35,812 nucleotides of DNA. Source: Candidatus Aceula lacicola (GTDB taxonomy: Bacteria > Omnitrophota > Gorgyraeia > Zapsychrales > Aceulaceae). The notes beneath the pieces were generated by a model that was not told where the DNA came from, ran no database searches, and saw nothing but the letters and a program-made list of their open reading frames with translations. Where the stretch lies: assembly GCA_030765785.1 (NCBI GenBank), contig JAVCCC010000013.1:1-35812 (forward strand), in the 5' to 3' direction. This document shows, piece by piece, positions 16,912 through 25,863 of the stretch (the stretch's first letter is position 1; each line of letters begins with the position of its first letter). A program made the position numbers and the translations under genes.

Positions 16912-17943
16912 CTATTTATACCTCAACTGCCCACATGCCGCTAATACATCCTGCCCTCGAGGCATACGCAAAGTCGCATGAATCCCAATTGCTTCTAATC
17001 GATTTTGAAAGTTGTATATTTCCTGACGGGAAGGTGCAAAATAATCAAACTCTGAAACAGAATTATAGGGAATCAGGTTCATTTTACATATAATTCCTTT
17101 AAAAGCTCTCTTTAATGCCTGGGCAGCTCTCTCAGTGCAAGTCACATCTTTGATTAGAATATATTCAAAAGTAATTTGACGATTTGTCTCCTTAACATAT
17201 TCTCTACAGGCTTCCATAAGTTCATGGAATGGGTACTTGCGATTTACAGGCATTAAAATATTCCTGGATTCATTATCATAACCATGCAAAGAGATTGATA
17301 ATTCAACCTGAAGTCCTTCTTTTGCAAATTCTTTAATTTTAGGGATAATCCCACAAGTCGAAACCGTTATTCGCCTTGCCCCAACATTTAAGCCTTTTTT
17401 ATCATTTATTATGCGAATTGACTTCATCATATTCTTAAAATTGTCAAATGGTTCTCCAACTCCCATATAGACTAGATGCGATAATGGATTTTTGTGATTT
17501 TTTGCTTCTTCTTTAGCATGTAATACCTGCATAAGGATTTCTGCGGTAGATAAATCTCTTTGCCATCCGCCTATGCCGCTAGCACAAAAATTGCAACCAA
17601 ACTTACAACCCGCTTGTGTTGATAAGCAAATAGTGGTTCTTTTAGAGCTAGGTATTAAGACAGTCTCTATTTTCTCCCCATCTTCTAGCTGAAAAAGAAA
17701 CTTTGTTGTACCATCTTGGGATATTTGCTTTTTAATTATCTGGAAGGGTTTTATTTGATATTTTTGCTTTAATTTATCACGAAATTCATTGGGAAGGTTT
17801 TTCATTTCATCAAAAGTCCATGCTCCCTTTTGATATATCCACTCAAAAATCTGAGTAGCTCGATAAGTTTTTTCTCTTAAGCCTTGAAGATAGTCAACTA
17901 GCTCACTATATAAAAGGTTTAAAATATTTTCTTTTTTATTCAT
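16912..17943 (-). CDS. rlmN: 23S rRNA A2503 / tRNA A37 C2-methyltransferase RlmN, 343 aa
   Basis: Radical-SAM methyltransferase. It carries an N-terminal RlmN domain (YRATQIFEWIYQKGAWTFDEMKNLP), the CX3CX2C cluster motif in CKFGCNFCASG, SAM-binding YMGVGEPFDN, RRITVSTCGI, and the conserved C-terminal Cys in LAACGQL for the methyl-transfer intermediate. Full normal length. It starts immediately after the remnant of a second rlmN. The related resistance enzyme Cfr has a similar core, but the overall pattern is RlmN. Confidence 0.93.
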   Translation of the reverse strand: MNKKENILNLLYSELVDYLQGLREKTYRATQIFEWIYQKGAWTFDEMKNLPNEFRDKLKQKYQIKPFQIIKKQISQDGTTKFLFQLEDGEKIETVLIPSSKRTTICLSTQAGCKFGCNFCASGIGGWQRDLSTAEILMQVLHAKEEAKNHKNPLSHLVYMGVGEPFDNFKNMMKSIRIINDKKGLNVGARRITVSTCGIIPKIKEFAKEGLQVELSISLHGYDNESRNILMPVNRKYPFHELMEACREYVKETNRQITFEYILIKDVTCTERAAQALKRAFKGIICKMNLIPYNSVSEFDYFAPSRQEIYNFQNRLEAIGIHATLRMPRGQDVLAACGQLRYK

Positions 17944-17944
17944 T

Positions 17945-18501
17945 TTAGTAATACATTTTCTCTAAATAGTCTAAAATCTGTCGCACTTTACTGTAGTCAA
18001 CGGTTCTCCAACCCCCATAAAAACAATGTGTGTAATCTTGTCTGGAGAAATTTGTTTTTGCACACATAAAATCTGATTAAGAATTTCACTGCAACTCAAA
18101 TTTCGTAACCATCCATTTTTACCACTTGCGCAAAAAAGACACCCGAACTTACACCCTACCTGCGTTGAAATACACAATGTCATTCTTCCTTTAGCTGGAA
18201 TCAAAACAGTCTCAATAAACTGATCTTTTCCGACTTCAAATAGAAACTTAGTTGTCTGATCTTTAGATATTTGTTTTTTGTAAGGAGAGAAAATAAAGAA
18301 CGTAAAATCTCTAATTAAATGTTCTTTTAACTCAAACGACACATTGCGCATCGCGTCAAACCCATCAACTTTTTTATCATAAATCCACTTAAAAATTTGC
18401 TGTGCACGAAACGATTTCTCGCCCACATCTTTAAGGTAGGCAGAAAGTTCTTCTAAGGATAAATCTTTAATATCTTTTTTTATTGCTGAGGAACAGCTCA
18501 T
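17945..18501 (-). pseudogene. Truncated, frameshifted second RlmN copy
   Basis: The N-terminal 165 residues are a good RlmN: FRAQQIFKWIYDKKVDGFDAMRN, CKFGCLFCASG cluster motif and FMGVGEPL. The open frame then ends after TTVKCDRF (stop at 17971). Restoring one base after CCGTTG gives GEPLDYSKVRQILDYLEKMYY and a stop at 17945, so a 1-nt deletion sits on top of a true loss of the C-terminal half, including the catalytic second Cys. It cannot methylate. It lies next to accA and could be the ancestral copy that the intact one replaced. Confidence 0.75.
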
Positions 18502-20970: not shown

Positions 20971-23900
20971 TCAAAGATAAAATTGAGAATCTTGATCAAA
21001 GAAATCTTGTGCACTCGAAAGATTCGTTACCGGAACAATGCTAATAATAACAGGTATGAATCCAGGAATTTGATCAGAAGTAATCTGATTCAGACTTTCT
21101 GGAGTTGAGAAATCTAACATCTTTCCTTTAGTTTGAATATCAAAATTTTGAGCATCTAAACGAATACCGCCAACATCTTTAACCCCCACACCGCTAGAAG
21201 AACCTGTCGGATCTGAATCGCTTGAACGAACTCCCTTTATCCCTTCTTCATATCCTTGTGCAAGAACTCCATCGATCTTCACATTTTCATCACCAGAAAC
21301 AAGAGCTTTTATAAGCTCGCCTAAAGTTGATTCATAATTTTTATTATCAACCCAATAGTAAACTCCTCCTACTGGAAATCCAGTAATTCGCTCAAATTGA
21401 GGAAAACGTCCATCTCGATAATCTCTATTCTTTTCTCGTAATATTTTGTTAATCTCATCAATCATTGCTTTATGATTCAAAGCTAACAACTGATTATCAA
21501 TCGTTTCATAAAAAACTGCTGGAATACCTGTTTCTCCATCAATAACAATCGTTTTATTAAATCGATCAGCTTCTGTTCCAGTATTTTTAGCAACCAAAGG
21601 GCCATCTTGAAAATCCCTATAACTCGGCAGCTGAATATCATACTCTTTTATAACTTTTATAAATTCTCCAGTTTTAGAAACCTCCGTTAAATAAGCTTTT
21701 TCTGGAACAAAACTCTGATCAAACGGTATTGCTTGATCTTCCGCAGATAAACCTTTTAACAAAAGACCAAAAGCAGCATTATAAATATCATTATTTGAAA
21801 AAATCTTTTTCTCTATAGGATTGTCATTACTTGCAATTACATTCGCAACAAGAAAACGACCCGCAGAATGCCCACTTGATTCATATTGAGTTTTAGCATC
21901 AAAACCAAGAACACCTTCAGCTGACAATGATTCGATATTGTTCGGATCAAATAATCTTAATAGATAATTCTTATACGGACCAGCAAGCATAAAATTGATT
22001 CCTTCATCATTCATCTCTTCAAGCGTTTTGCGCATATCATCGAAATCCTTCTGCATAGCATCAAAACCAGACTGAACAACACTAACACCAATTTCTCCAT
22101 TCGATTTTTTATACTCCTTTACTCTTGTTTCTTTAAACATTGTCGTAATACCATCTCCCAAAAGTCCAATATTAGCTTTTTTCTTAAAATTTTCTGGTTT
22201 TTGCATTTCATTAGAAATAATTTGGCGTGCTTTCTCTATAGCTTCAAAATTCGGAGTTCCTCCTCTAGGAGTAATCGAGTTAAGAAAGTCAATCTGCCTA
22301 TTAATATCCGATGTCACAATGCTTTTCACTTTATTATTCGCAATCACAACTAAGCCAGGAACATCGCAAATTTTATGCAGATTTCTTAAATGTTCTTCTA
22401 AATTCTCACGATTCTTTTCAAACTGTTGAGAATATGAACCACTTGCATCAACAATCAAAACAAAAAGATTCTTCTCTTGTTCTTTATTATTAATTGACAC
22501 TTGATTAACTTTAGGAACAATCTGCATAACCCCTTGCGTAATTCCAGCAACTTGCAAGTCAGAAAATGGCATCAAAAAATGTCCATATCCATCAATAGAA
22601 AGACTGCCTTGAGCTTTTGCTTTTTGCGATAGAAAATCCGCGTTAGCCCCCTGGTCTCCCGCAGTCCCGTCAGCTCTAAAAGAAGACATCACTTCTTCGC
22701 TCTCTCCAAGAAGACTAATGGCAAGCTTATCATTCTCTACGTTCCTTGGGACTTTCACAGAAAAAAACTGCTGAGCATTTCTTACAATCTCAACACCAAA
22801 ACTTTCGTAATCAGAATTTGAGATATGAACATGCGCTTTATTGTATTCCTTTAAAATCTCGATAAGAGGTGGTGCTTCATTTTCGTTGCTTACATTTAAA
22901 ATATAAATATCCTGACCTTTTCTTTCAGCCTCATCAATAATTTGATAAATATCTTTACCGTCTACCCTAAGATTAAGAATTTGCTTTTTCGTCAAAGGCT
23001 TTTTTCCTTTTTTCGCATAATCCTGCCATGCATCTGTTGGAAAATAAATGCGAGCGCCTCGCGGCTGAGTCATAATTAAACTATCAAGCTTTTCTATAAA
23101 TGGCGTGTTTCCTTTTCCCGGCATTTGCAAAAAAGTTGTTTCATTTAAAAAATTTAAAATCTCATCTGGCGTCATACTTTCAGGAATTTTAATATCACTT
23201 TCTCCGACTGTCGCAATTGAAATTCGCACATTATCAAGACCTTGCGCTTTGCACTGCTCTACAAGTTTCACAAGACTTCGTCTTTGAGCTAAGGCCATCT
23301 CTCTTGTAATAGAGCCTGTCAAATCGACACCGATAGCAATATGAATTGTATCTTGGGGGATCTTTAAATCAACAGAATGCACGTCAGGCTTAAATTGAAC
23401 AGACCTGAAGAAATCTTCATTAGTTGTCGAAACAACGACTGTATTGTCAATAATCTTGACATCAGAGGCGGGAGCATCATTGGTCTCGGGCAAAGCAACT
23501 CCATTATTTACCCAATGATATTGTTGATAAGATTTAATAAAATTATCAAGGGCTGGATCTTGCAATCCAACAAGAAATAAACCCTTAACAATATAGTTTT
23601 TAACAAAATCTGATGAGAATTCTTTTATCTTTCTTTCTTTGTTGTCCATCAAGAAAACACCTTGATTAAGCGTAGAATAAACATTGCGCCGGACCCATCT
23701 GTTAGAATATGCCATTTTTTTGTCCTGATTTAAAAGTTTTAAGAATAACTTTTTTTCTTTTCTATTCCCTGGTGCATACTCTTTTTGTACAACAAGAGTT
23801 GCTAAAGTCCAACTTTTGCCTTTTTCTTGAATTGTAAGCTCAACAGCTCCTCCCCTTATTCCTTTGCTTTTTTGCTCATCAAAACTCTTTACATATACAA

Positions 23901-25464
23901 CAAGACCATAATCACCAAGCGACTCATTCATTGATTCCACATAAGGCATCATCTCAGAAATAATCTCTATTTGTTCATCGGAAAAATTATAATAAAGACT
24001 ACTTTCGCTAAAAGAAGCTGTCTTCTTTGCATCTTTTTCTCCTGATTCCCTAGACACCATCGCAGGACTATTCTGCCCCTCTCTAAAAATACGCGCTACC
24101 TCCTGGTCTGAATTCGAGGCTAGCGATGGAGTTGCGCTCAAAGCTAAAAACATTCCTGCCAAAGCACTCATAATTGTTGATTTGCGGCTTGAAAGCATTG
24201 CAGAAAAATTATCTGCAACCTCCATTCTAATACTTGCAATTGAAATACGCGCATCTTCTACCCGTTTATTCATCCTCGATCGAAATTGAGTAAATTGCTC
24301 TTTTTGACGCATTGCAAAATCGTTAAATTGATTTTGCATATCTTTTAAATCTGAAACAATAACTGATGAACTCGAATACGTGACCCCTCCAGAAAAATAC
24401 TTTCGAGGAATATTTTTCTTTGTATATTTGTCATATTCAACCTTAACGTAATCGCATACACCTTTTTTAAACGCCTCGAGGTATTGATTATAAATTTTCT
24501 CTTTCACTTCTTTGTCTTCAATATCAACGCCAACTATTTTCTTCTGATTAACATAAACACGACTTAAAAAAGACTGTTTCAAATTCCTTTTAAACCATGT
24601 CGCCAAAGCCCATGCATGCGTGATTTGTCTCAAAAGCGCAAAATTCTTTCCCCCGTTAACTTCCTTTTCAATCTCAGGAATAACAATATCCCGTACAACA
24701 TCTGAAGAAATACTATTCAGCTCTTTATTTTCATTCTCCGAATGTCCGTTCATGTCCATCTGATCATTACCAAGATTCAATTGCAAGGCCAAATAATCTT
24801 CCTCAAGCATAACCTTAAGATGAACATCCACCAAATACGCCCTATCGCCATCCTGAAAAACATTTGCTTTCTCCGGAACGATCCATACTTTATTAAATGT
24901 ATTAATTGGAATATTTGTTGTTCCGTATTGTTCGTAGGCTTTTTTATAAACTTTATCCCAGAATTCCTTTCCTAAATCATCTTCCGGATAAATCAAGGAT
25001 GCAGTGATTTGCTTTAAAAAATAGTCCTGCGCTAACATGTCTCGCCCAAGCTCTGTCTGGGCCAAAGAATCAGAGATAACACGATCTTCCTCGTAAGGAG
25101 AAAGATTGACCCACATGTCTTCTTCTGGCATGGTCAAAGAAGCCAAAAAGTATCGAACATTCTTTCCTGTTTCTTTCTCAAGATCGCTACCAGTCAAGCC
25201 AGTATTTCCGCTATCAATCATAAAATCAAATTTTAAGGGGTTGTCAGGATAGATTCTGATGCCGCGTAGCAAGGTGGGAACAAACTTAGAACTTAAAGAG
25301 ACCATCGCACCTGGCGCAGGCAATCCTAACAACCCCATGTCCGCTGAAATTATTTGCGCATGGCAATATTCAGCTGGAAAAATGAAATTTCCGCAAAAAG
25401 TCAAAAGGACAATAATGACCTTAATTTTTCTATAAATATTCTTATACATATTCTTCGTTCCCAT
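20971..25464 (-). CDS. Giant secreted double-vWA protein, 1497 aa, riboswitch-controlled
   Basis: From ATG at 25462-25464 (GAGAGG six bases upstream; the ORF's earlier ATG lies inside the terminator hairpin). Numbered from the longer ORF (subtract 10): signal peptide about 19-46; N-terminal domain about 50-430 with GLPAPGAM and LSPYEEDRVISD; a second signal-like stretch 440-460 (IMSALAGMFLALSATPSLAS); vWA-1 about 715-910 with complete MIDAS D724-L-T-G-S, T797, D821; vWA-2 about 1008-1225 with D1016-A-S-G-S, T1080, D1114; C-terminal region with VGGIRLDAQNFDIQTKG and PVIISIVPVTNL. Surface adhesion or matrix binding is the likely role. Single gene downstream of a c-di-GMP-I riboswitch. Confidence 0.85.
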   Translation of the reverse strand: MGTKNMYKNIYRKIKVIIVLLTFCGNFIFPAEYCHAQIISADMGLLGLPAPGAMVSLSSKFVPTLLRGIRIYPDNPLKFDFMIDSGNTGLTGSDLEKETGKNVRYFLASLTMPEEDMWVNLSPYEEDRVISDSLAQTELGRDMLAQDYFLKQITASLIYPEDDLGKEFWDKVYKKAYEQYGTTNIPINTFNKVWIVPEKANVFQDGDRAYLVDVHLKVMLEEDYLALQLNLGNDQMDMNGHSENENKELNSISSDVVRDIVIPEIEKEVNGGKNFALLRQITHAWALATWFKRNLKQSFLSRVYVNQKKIVGVDIEDKEVKEKIYNQYLEAFKKGVCDYVKVEYDKYTKKNIPRKYFSGGVTYSSSSVIVSDLKDMQNQFNDFAMRQKEQFTQFRSRMNKRVEDARISIASIRMEVADNFSAMLSSRKSTIMSALAGMFLALSATPSLASNSDQEVARIFREGQNSPAMVSRESGEKDAKKTASFSESSLYYNFSDEQIEIISEMMPYVESMNESLGDYGLVVYVKSFDEQKSKGIRGGAVELTIQEKGKSWTLATLVVQKEYAPGNRKEKKLFLKLLNQDKKMAYSNRWVRRNVYSTLNQGVFLMDNKERKIKEFSSDFVKNYIVKGLFLVGLQDPALDNFIKSYQQYHWVNNGVALPETNDAPASDVKIIDNTVVVSTTNEDFFRSVQFKPDVHSVDLKIPQDTIHIAIGVDLTGSITREMALAQRRSLVKLVEQCKAQGLDNVRISIATVGESDIKIPESMTPDEILNFLNETTFLQMPGKGNTPFIEKLDSLIMTQPRGARIYFPTDAWQDYAKKGKKPLTKKQILNLRVDGKDIYQIIDEAERKGQDIYILNVSNENEAPPLIEILKEYNKAHVHISNSDYESFGVEIVRNAQQFFSVKVPRNVENDKLAISLLGESEEVMSSFRADGTAGDQGANADFLSQKAKAQGSLSIDGYGHFLMPFSDLQVAGITQGVMQIVPKVNQVSINNKEQEKNLFVLIVDASGSYSQQFEKNRENLEEHLRNLHKICDVPGLVVIANNKVKSIVTSDINRQIDFLNSITPRGGTPNFEAIEKARQIISNEMQKPENFKKKANIGLLGDGITTMFKETRVKEYKKSNGEIGVSVVQSGFDAMQKDFDDMRKTLEEMNDEGINFMLAGPYKNYLLRLFDPNNIESLSAEGVLGFDAKTQYESSGHSAGRFLVANVIASNDNPIEKKIFSNNDIYNAAFGLLLKGLSAEDQAIPFDQSFVPEKAYLTEVSKTGEFIKVIKEYDIQLPSYRDFQDGPLVAKNTGTEADRFNKTIVIDGETGIPAVFYETIDNQLLALNHKAMIDEINKILREKNRDYRDGRFPQFERITGFPVGGVYYWVDNKNYESTLGELIKALVSGDENVKIDGVLAQGYEEGIKGVRSSDSDPTGSSSGVGVKDVGGIRLDAQNFDIQTKGKMLDFSTPESLNQITSDQIPGFIPVIISIVPVTNLSSAQDFFDQDSQFYL

Positions 25465-25477
25465 CACTAACCTCTCT

Positions 25478-25519
25478 AAAAATAAAAACCCCATTCTCGA
25501 AAAAACTTCAAGAATAGGG
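25478..25519 (-). terminator. Riboswitch expression platform: intrinsic terminator
   Basis: On the minus strand CCCTATTCTTGAA pairs with TTTCGAGAATGGGG (two G-U), followed by TTTTTATTTTT. It sits between the aptamer and the Shine-Dalgarno sequence of the vWA gene. Its 3' arm TTTTCGAGAA (25494-25503) is also perfectly complementary to the 5' P1 strand of the aptamer (25612-25621). Confidence 0.85.
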
Positions 25520-25540
25520 TCAATAAATACCTGTACCTTT

Positions 25541-25622
25541 CTTCTTTCGGTAGCCCAACCCTCAATTCATGAGTTGCTGGCTTTGCGTCCCCTAGTTCCC
25601 CAGGGTTTGCCTTTTCGAGAAG
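25541..25622 (-). ncRNA. Cyclic di-GMP-I (GEMM) riboswitch aptamer
   Basis: The minus strand carries the GEMM-I signature in order: GGCAAACC, a stem CCCTG/TAGGG capped by the GNRA tetraloop GGAA, GGGACGCAAAGCCA, a second stem CAACTC/GAGGGTTG, and GGGCTACCGA closing P1 (CTTCTCG... with CGAAAGAAG). All conserved parts are present. It lies in the 5' leader of the vWA protein, about 25 nt after a likely transcription start. Confidence 0.93.
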
Positions 25623-25653
25623 CCTTACTAAAAAACATCTGTAAAGAACAATA

Positions 25654-25682
25654 TTTATCTATATTAAGGGGCTCTATGTAAA
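25654..25682 (-). promoter_or_regulatory. Probable sigma-70 promoter of the riboswitch leader
   Basis: Minus strand TTTACA (25677-25682), 17-bp spacer, GATAAA (25654-25659). The start of transcription would be near 25647, just ahead of the aptamer. A GGGCT/AGCCC inverted repeat (12-base loop) encloses the -35 region. Confidence 0.5.
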
Positions 25683-25817
25683 CCTAAGCCCTCATATTCC
25701 CTATATCTTGCAAAAAAACCTTTTCCAAAAAACAATTTCCAATTTCTATTAATGTCTACGCATCTTCATCAGAATCTATTATAAGTATAAACTATATTTA
25801 TATATAAAACTATGCAT

Positions 25818-25863
25818 AGGGTCGTTTTCGAGAAAACGCTTTCTTTTTGAAAAGCAAGACCCT
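25818..25863. other. Perfect three-way-junction-like inverted repeat upstream of comM
   Basis: Outer arms AGGGTC/GACCCT enclose two hairpins, GTTTT-CGAG-AAAAC and GCTTT...AAAGC. All three stems are perfect. It lies about 80 bp before the comM start and outside the riboswitch transcript. TTTTCGAGAA inside it also occurs in the aptamer P1 strand. Role unknown. Confidence 0.45.

Follow-up and report, generated by a model that had tools for sequence, protein, structure and literature searches.

The window, by which we mean the whole 35,812-nt stretch of DNA that was analysed, comes from an uncultured Omnitrophota bacterium and carries on its minus strand a gene for a 1497-residue protein of secreted type, preceded by a leader with a c-di-GMP-I (GEMM-I) aptamer and an intrinsic terminator. 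From upstream to downstream, the features of this locus are as follows.

25831-25844 (-): palindrome AGAAAGCGTTTTCT, operator-like and lying upstream of the promoter; similar sites occur in the order
25784-25789 (-): TATACT, putative leader-promoter -10 element, shared with related leaders
25640-25649 (-): boxA GTTCTTTACA, a predicted NusB/S10 site, suggested by its match to the genome's own 16S boxA CGTTCTTTAGA and by enrichment
25612-25622 (-): P1 5' strand and J1/2 (strand P), with the P1 3' strand or the terminator 3' arm as partner
25546-25621 (-): c-di-GMP-I (GEMM-I) aptamer, RF01051, full length
25557-25571 (-): P3 3' side, second candidate antiterminator strand, with which the terminator 5' arm could pair instead
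25541-25545 (-): P1 3' strand AGAAG, which pairs with 25622-25618
25507-25521 (-): terminator 5' arm (strand T), from hairpin prediction
25487-25501 (-): terminator 3' arm (strand H), where TTTTCGAGAA (25503-25494) could pair with the aptamer 5' strand
25478-25488 (-): U-tract of the terminator, from the sequence
25471-25477 (-): RBS AGAGAGG, 6 nt before the ATG at 25464
20971-25464 (-): controlled gene, 1497 aa, with a signal-like N-terminus, a ~350-aa module and two vWA-like domains

The first-pass annotation had claimed a complete GEMM-I aptamer and proposed a search against Rfam RF01051. We found that no other Rfam family has a match in the window, and that this one matches 25621-25546(-) over the full model (positions 1-87) with a score of 56.7 bits (E 1.1e-08), well above the gathering cut-off of 35 bits. 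Read 5' to 3', the helices are P1 (CTTCT/AGAAG), P2 (CCCTGG-GGAA-CTAGGG) and then P3; the P1 5' strand CTTCT occupies 25622-25618. The aptamer keeps the G before GCAAA in J1/2 and the C in the 3' CC on the P1 3' side, which we take to be the expected ligand contacts, with numbering after the Vc2 structure. The equivalent G is found in 120, and the equivalent C in 135, of 141 related GEMM-I elements. With G at the former position, the window aptamer is without the A variant linked to cGAMP. As judged from its sequence, the element belongs to the c-di-GMP-I class, and we infer that it binds this ligand. GEMM-I elements are present in 50 of 54 related genomes, with at most 14 per genome; the window's genome (1.5 Mb) has three.

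Variants of the ligand-contacting positions were seen elsewhere. GEMM-I elements with A for G before GCAAA (L017, L018, L081, L083, L151, L157, L163, L165, L169, L171 and L174) carry a change that is reportedly tied to 3',3'-cGAMP specificity in Geobacter, and are candidate cGAMP riboswitches in Omnitrophota. In L074 (G001:C17), L078 (G002:C12), L011 and L177, the C that pairs with the ligand, close to the 3' end, is replaced by U, and the ligand preference of these elements may differ.

An intrinsic terminator just before the RBS of the double-vWA gene had likewise been annotated, and this was borne out: a hairpin of 15 pairs (25521-25487(-), ~-20 kcal/mol) runs into the tail TTTATTTTT, and the RBS follows directly. 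The terminator, laid out as GACCCTATTCTTGAAG-TTTTTTCGAGAATGGGGTT-TTTATTTTT, begins ~20 nt after P1 and lies wholly outside the aptamer, and therefore the ligand-bound aptamer and the terminator can coexist. The start codon is most likely the ATG at 25464, served by the RBS AGAGAGG, and not the ATG at 25494 given by ORF calling.

The product of the controlled gene had been described as a giant double-vWA protein. Pfam did not recognize a vWA domain in it (no match at E 0.1), and NCBIfam returned a weak cobaltochelatase match (E 0.0024, aa 993-1107). The predicted fold was more favourable to the vWA assignment: the best PDB matches to a model of residues 690-1260 (pLDDT 54) were the mussel byssus protein PTMP1, with its MIDAS site, and integrin I domains, at E ~1e-6. 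PTMP1 itself has two vWA domains. The protein also contains the DxSxS-type motifs DLTGS and DASGS. The vWA-like domains have tentative support from a low-confidence predicted fold, and none from Pfam. The word "giant" holds in a relative sense only, as 1497 aa is modest next to the ORFs over 20 kb to which the literature applies it (PMC10066038).

The N-terminal module of ~350 aa is part of a large Omnitrophota paralog family, which covers residues ~10-370 and, among the best candidates scored, numbers roughly ten copies or more in the majority of related genomes. The module matched nothing in the PDB, and nothing convincingly in Pfam or NCBIfam; two single-member matches (E 0.0075 and 0.0086) were ignored. 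In alignment A3 (window 24379-25464(-)), this conserved module heads long, otherwise dissimilar secreted-type proteins of the order. The nearest full-length relative of the gene, G001:C14, apparently has the same arrangement, and its upstream sequence resembles the start of the divergent YifB-type gene. An orthologous riboswitch was sought at this G001 gene and is not there; G001's homologous riboswitch precedes another exoprotein gene. Since the G001 ortholog keeps the operator-like palindrome and the TATACT promoter without a riboswitch, the riboswitch was either gained here or lost in G001.

The central proposal of the first-pass annotation was that the P1 5' strand pairs with the 3' arm of the terminator. 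We found that TTCTCGAAAA (25621-25612) and TTTTCGAGAA (25503-25494) are exact reverse complements over 10 nt, and that the 10-bp helix is extended on the aptamer side by G.U, G.U and C-G pairs. When the arm was shuffled, at least 10 matches arose in 5e-5 of trials; the terminators of the test set's other leaders gave at most a 7-nt match (mean 4.3). These data confirm that the 10-bp complementarity is exact and beyond chance. In a homologous leader of the same genus, L074, which keeps the P1 5' sequence and a hairpin, the complementarity is retained and reaches 13 nt (ATTCTCGAAAAGG with CCTTTTCGAGAAT). Part of this match falls in the hairpin loop, where bases CC lie opposite GG at the place of the window's G.U pairs; because these bases are in the loop, retention of their complementarity is not explicable by terminator pairing. 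Both the 10-nt match of the window and the 13-nt match of L074 exceed those of every other terminator tested (maximum 7). Shared ancestry limits inference from L074, and the U-tract is absent after the related G001 hairpin, which may not be a terminator there. A third copy of the leader, G003:C20 (JAKQPK010000019.1, Candidatus Omnitrophota), is cut by the contig end, and a search of viral contigs for homologues found none.

As a rule of the order, pairing between the P1 5' strand and the 3' arm was rejected (mean Z -0.14 over 86 leaders). Across the order, terminator arms tend to mimic the P2 strands of the aptamer: mean Z relative to shuffles was -1.14 for the terminator 5' arm and the P2 3' strand, and -1.07 for the terminator 3' arm and the P2 5' strand, with a weak leader-specific signal.

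The annotation had further proposed that this pairing could prevent termination. In full-length folds, the terminator state reached -57.7 kcal/mol versus -46.8 kcal/mol for the enforced antiterminator, with or without ligand. Because the terminator state is favoured by 10.9 kcal/mol at full length, the antiterminator cannot hold at equilibrium; the complementarity stands, the block to termination at equilibrium does not. The antiterminator would work kinetically only, by delaying the terminator during transcription. Length-by-length partition functions gave the antiterminator a probability of 0.91-1.0 at RNA ends 25496-25492 with both transcript starts tested, and it was the equilibrium fold only when the RNA ended at ~25496-25491. 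With GGGG exposed, the terminator took over; the RNA end at which it did so varied from 25490 to 25488 with the transcript start, and the terminator's probability was ~0.9-1 from 25489 on. The same succession from antiterminator to terminator was predicted for L074. As an approximation of the ligand-locked state, we folded the terminator segment without access to the aptamer, and found that it forms from 25498-25496, ~8 nt earlier than with the aptamer strand free. The polymerase covers roughly the last 10 nt of RNA, and thus the RNA exposed with the polymerase on the U-tract would end at ~25496-25489. As the exposed end falls in this range, an empty aptamer would favour the antiterminator at roughly the point of decision. 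This modelled succession supports an OFF switch of a kinetic kind, in which the antiterminator is unavailable when the aptamer is full. Against this reading, pairing of the aptamer strand with the 3' arm comes late, which puts it at a kinetic disadvantage relative to the customary use of the 5' arm.

From these results, we consider it somewhat better than an even bet that the leader is a transcriptional OFF switch that acts by kinetic attenuation through capture of the 3' arm by the P1 5' strand, with a boxA in the leader. Without c-di-GMP, the aptamer 5' strand (P1 5' strand and J1/2) would be free to capture the first part of the emerging 3' arm in a helix of 10-13 bp, which would delay the terminator until the polymerase had moved beyond the U-tract; the P3 3' side may assist by pairing with the terminator 5' arm. 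With c-di-GMP bound, P1 and J1/2 would be locked, the terminator would fold at once, and transcription would end before the RBS of the vWA-protein gene. The boxA probably loads a Nus factor complex that protects the untranslated leader or tunes elongation. The OFF switch of the first-pass annotation fits the anatomy, in which the terminator lies outside the aptamer, and is qualified by the folding, in which the antiterminator is transient and the terminator is the final state. The aptamer, the terminator, their complementarity and the boxA match with its enrichment are visible in the sequence, and from these the ligand binding, the direction, the kinetic mechanism and the loading of Nus factors are inferred.

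A transcriptional OFF switch of the GEMM-I class, Cd1 of Clostridioides difficile, offers a close parallel: there, aptamer and terminator coexist and the antiterminator is transiently stable (PMC9262584). The window leader resembles Cd1 in its GEMM-I aptamer, its separate and compatible downstream terminator and its predicted transient antiterminator, but the antiterminator of Cd1 joins the terminator 5' strand to the aptamer 3' strand, whereas the strongest match in the window joins the aptamer 5' strand to the terminator 3' arm; the boxA before the aptamer is a further difference. The window switch adds a member to the c-di-GMP-I class, one whose kinetic antiterminator is plausible and of an unusual kind.

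One alternative is a conventional OFF switch, in which the P3 3' side of the aptamer pairs with the terminator 5' arm and the match of the P1 5' strand to the 3' arm is secondary. This pairing follows the logic of Cd1 (PMC9262584), is available as soon as the 5' arm is made, before the 3' arm exists, and yields a duplex of -10.6 to -11.5 kcal/mol that beat all 40 randomly drawn terminator 5' arms from other genomes in a swap test. Folds that contain it lie 1.2-2.6 kcal/mol above the best at RNA ends 25506-25495, and the two antiterminator pairings can coexist. Its probability in the partition function, however, is at most 0.1, and in the G001 leader no comparable P3 pairing was seen by eye, whereas the pairing of the P1 5' strand with the 3' arm is longer there. 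We regard the conventional arrangement as unlikely. With both antiterminator models counted, we consider the OFF direction likely.

The stability gap of the full-length fold would also suit an attenuator that is insensitive to ligand or nearly constitutive, in which the terminator always wins and the aptamer has little effect or has decayed. Further points in its favour are that the P1 helix is rarely formed in the longer leader (probability 0.02-0.2), in which upstream RNA pairs with P1, and that the orthologous gene in G001 does without the riboswitch. The fully conserved aptamer core, the Rfam score well above the cut-off and a compensatory change in the homologous leader (the first pair of P1 is C-G in the window and A-T in G001) all argue against decay, and make this reading improbable. 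An ON switch, in which c-di-GMP increases read-through, is the least probable of the alternatives, and we give it hardly any weight. Such layouts do appear to occur in the phylum: in L210 (2903-2944(-)), L005, L076 and L119, the terminator seems to share the aptamer 3' strand (GCCGGGTT... CCGGTTTTTT), with the terminator 5' arm overlapping that strand, as in L210. In the window there is no such overlap, and ligand binding removes competitors of the terminator and adds none. The pilM riboswitch of Geobacter metallireducens, an ON switch (PMC9262584), likewise combines a GEMM-I aptamer with an intrinsic terminator, but its terminator shares aptamer strands and that of the window does not.

The account of the first-pass annotation did not include the boxA, the upstream operator-like palindrome or the distal promoter. 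The window boxA has a GYTCTTT core and matches the boxA before the 16S rRNA of its own genome. Elements of this kind were taken from four rRNA leaders that show them within 70 nt of the 16S start, and read CGTTCTTTAGA in the window's genome and G001, and CGTTCTTTGAC or TGTTCTTTGAC otherwise; the G006 rRNA leader has, by eye, GATCTTTGAAA. We found GYTCTTT 8-30 nt before the aptamer in 32 of the order's 141 GEMM-I leaders, versus 2.2 +/- 1.5 (maximum 9) expected from dinucleotide shuffles. The form GHTCTTTD occurred in 35 GEMM-I leaders, with a single reverse-strand occurrence for comparison. Since it was the GEMM-I leaders that had drawn attention to the motif, post hoc, cobalamin riboswitches served as an independent set: of 30 cobalamin aptamers from related genomes (L239-L268), 15 have GHTCTTTD no more than 60 nt upstream, and ten of these 15 motifs start 8-12 nt before the aptamer. 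None of four TPP riboswitches had a match, and a search for glycine riboswitches as a further control class found none in the order.

The aligned leaders show a regular order of TATACT, ~20 nt, boxA and aptamer; in the window, ~135 nt separate the best TATACT from the boxA downstream. A combined promoter and boxA pattern had four matches in four genomes, three of them at GEMM-I leaders. The fourth lies opposite ribosomal-protein genes, has no Rfam match and was judged to be chance. The pattern read backwards, as a control, also had 0-2 matches per strand and genome. The idea that boxA marks the vWA/N-module family of proteins was rejected, as it precedes 5 of 30 such genes, two of which are the riboswitch-bearing ones, and is rare before members without a riboswitch. 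In Planctomycetota, boxA-like sequences (GATCTTTGG, GCTCTTTGG or GTTCTTTGG) stand ~33-37 nt before the GEMM-I aptamers L182, L183, L185, L195, L208 and L209, which suggests that the link extends beyond Omnitrophota.

The association of boxA with riboswitches is statistically strong, and is a newer part of these findings than the switch itself. Riboswitches go unmentioned in a 2017 survey of boxA targets (PMC5725501), and in the titles and abstracts of literature joining boxA, antitermination and riboswitches, the association is apparently unreported. As in the suhB leader, a boxA/Nus target outside rRNA, the window has a GYTCTTT-type boxA in an mRNA leader; the known targets are Nus-factor and other genes (PMC5725501), whereas here the boxA stands just before riboswitch aptamers. 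It may protect the transcript against Rho, or alter elongation and the folding of the RNA.

The Nus complex has been described chiefly for rRNA, phage and a handful of mRNAs, and a riboswitch is timed by how fast the polymerase moves and where it pauses. We tentatively suggest, at somewhat less than even confidence, that c-di-GMP-I and cobalamin leaders of Omnitrophota are often transcribed by a boxA-loaded, Nus-modified polymerase, and that the window adds a kinetic antiterminator formed by the aptamer 5' strand and the terminator 3' arm. If so, riboswitch decisions in Omnitrophota would fall to an antitermination complex of the rRNA type, and systematic boxA elements before aptamers would tie the sensing of metabolites and second messengers to the Nus complex across the lineage. 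For a phylum of which very few members are in culture, the locus would also provide a concrete output of c-di-GMP: a surface-type vWA protein predicted to be repressed at high c-di-GMP.

Upstream of the leader, the -10 element common to related leaders is TATACT/TGTTATACTT; a simple sigma-70 scan did not call the TATACT of the window. Sites similar to the palindrome, of the form AGAAANCGNTTTCT, were found upstream of 30 of 140 GEMM-I aptamers versus 9 for control motifs, mostly at a distance of 64-105 nt, and likely reflect a shared transcription factor. The palindrome AGAAANCGNTTTCT resembles a LacI-type operator. Elsewhere in the window, two adjacent and similar radical-SAM frames (16912-17943(-) and 17971-18501(-); RlmN-like by eye), the second of them short, may represent a duplication with truncation.
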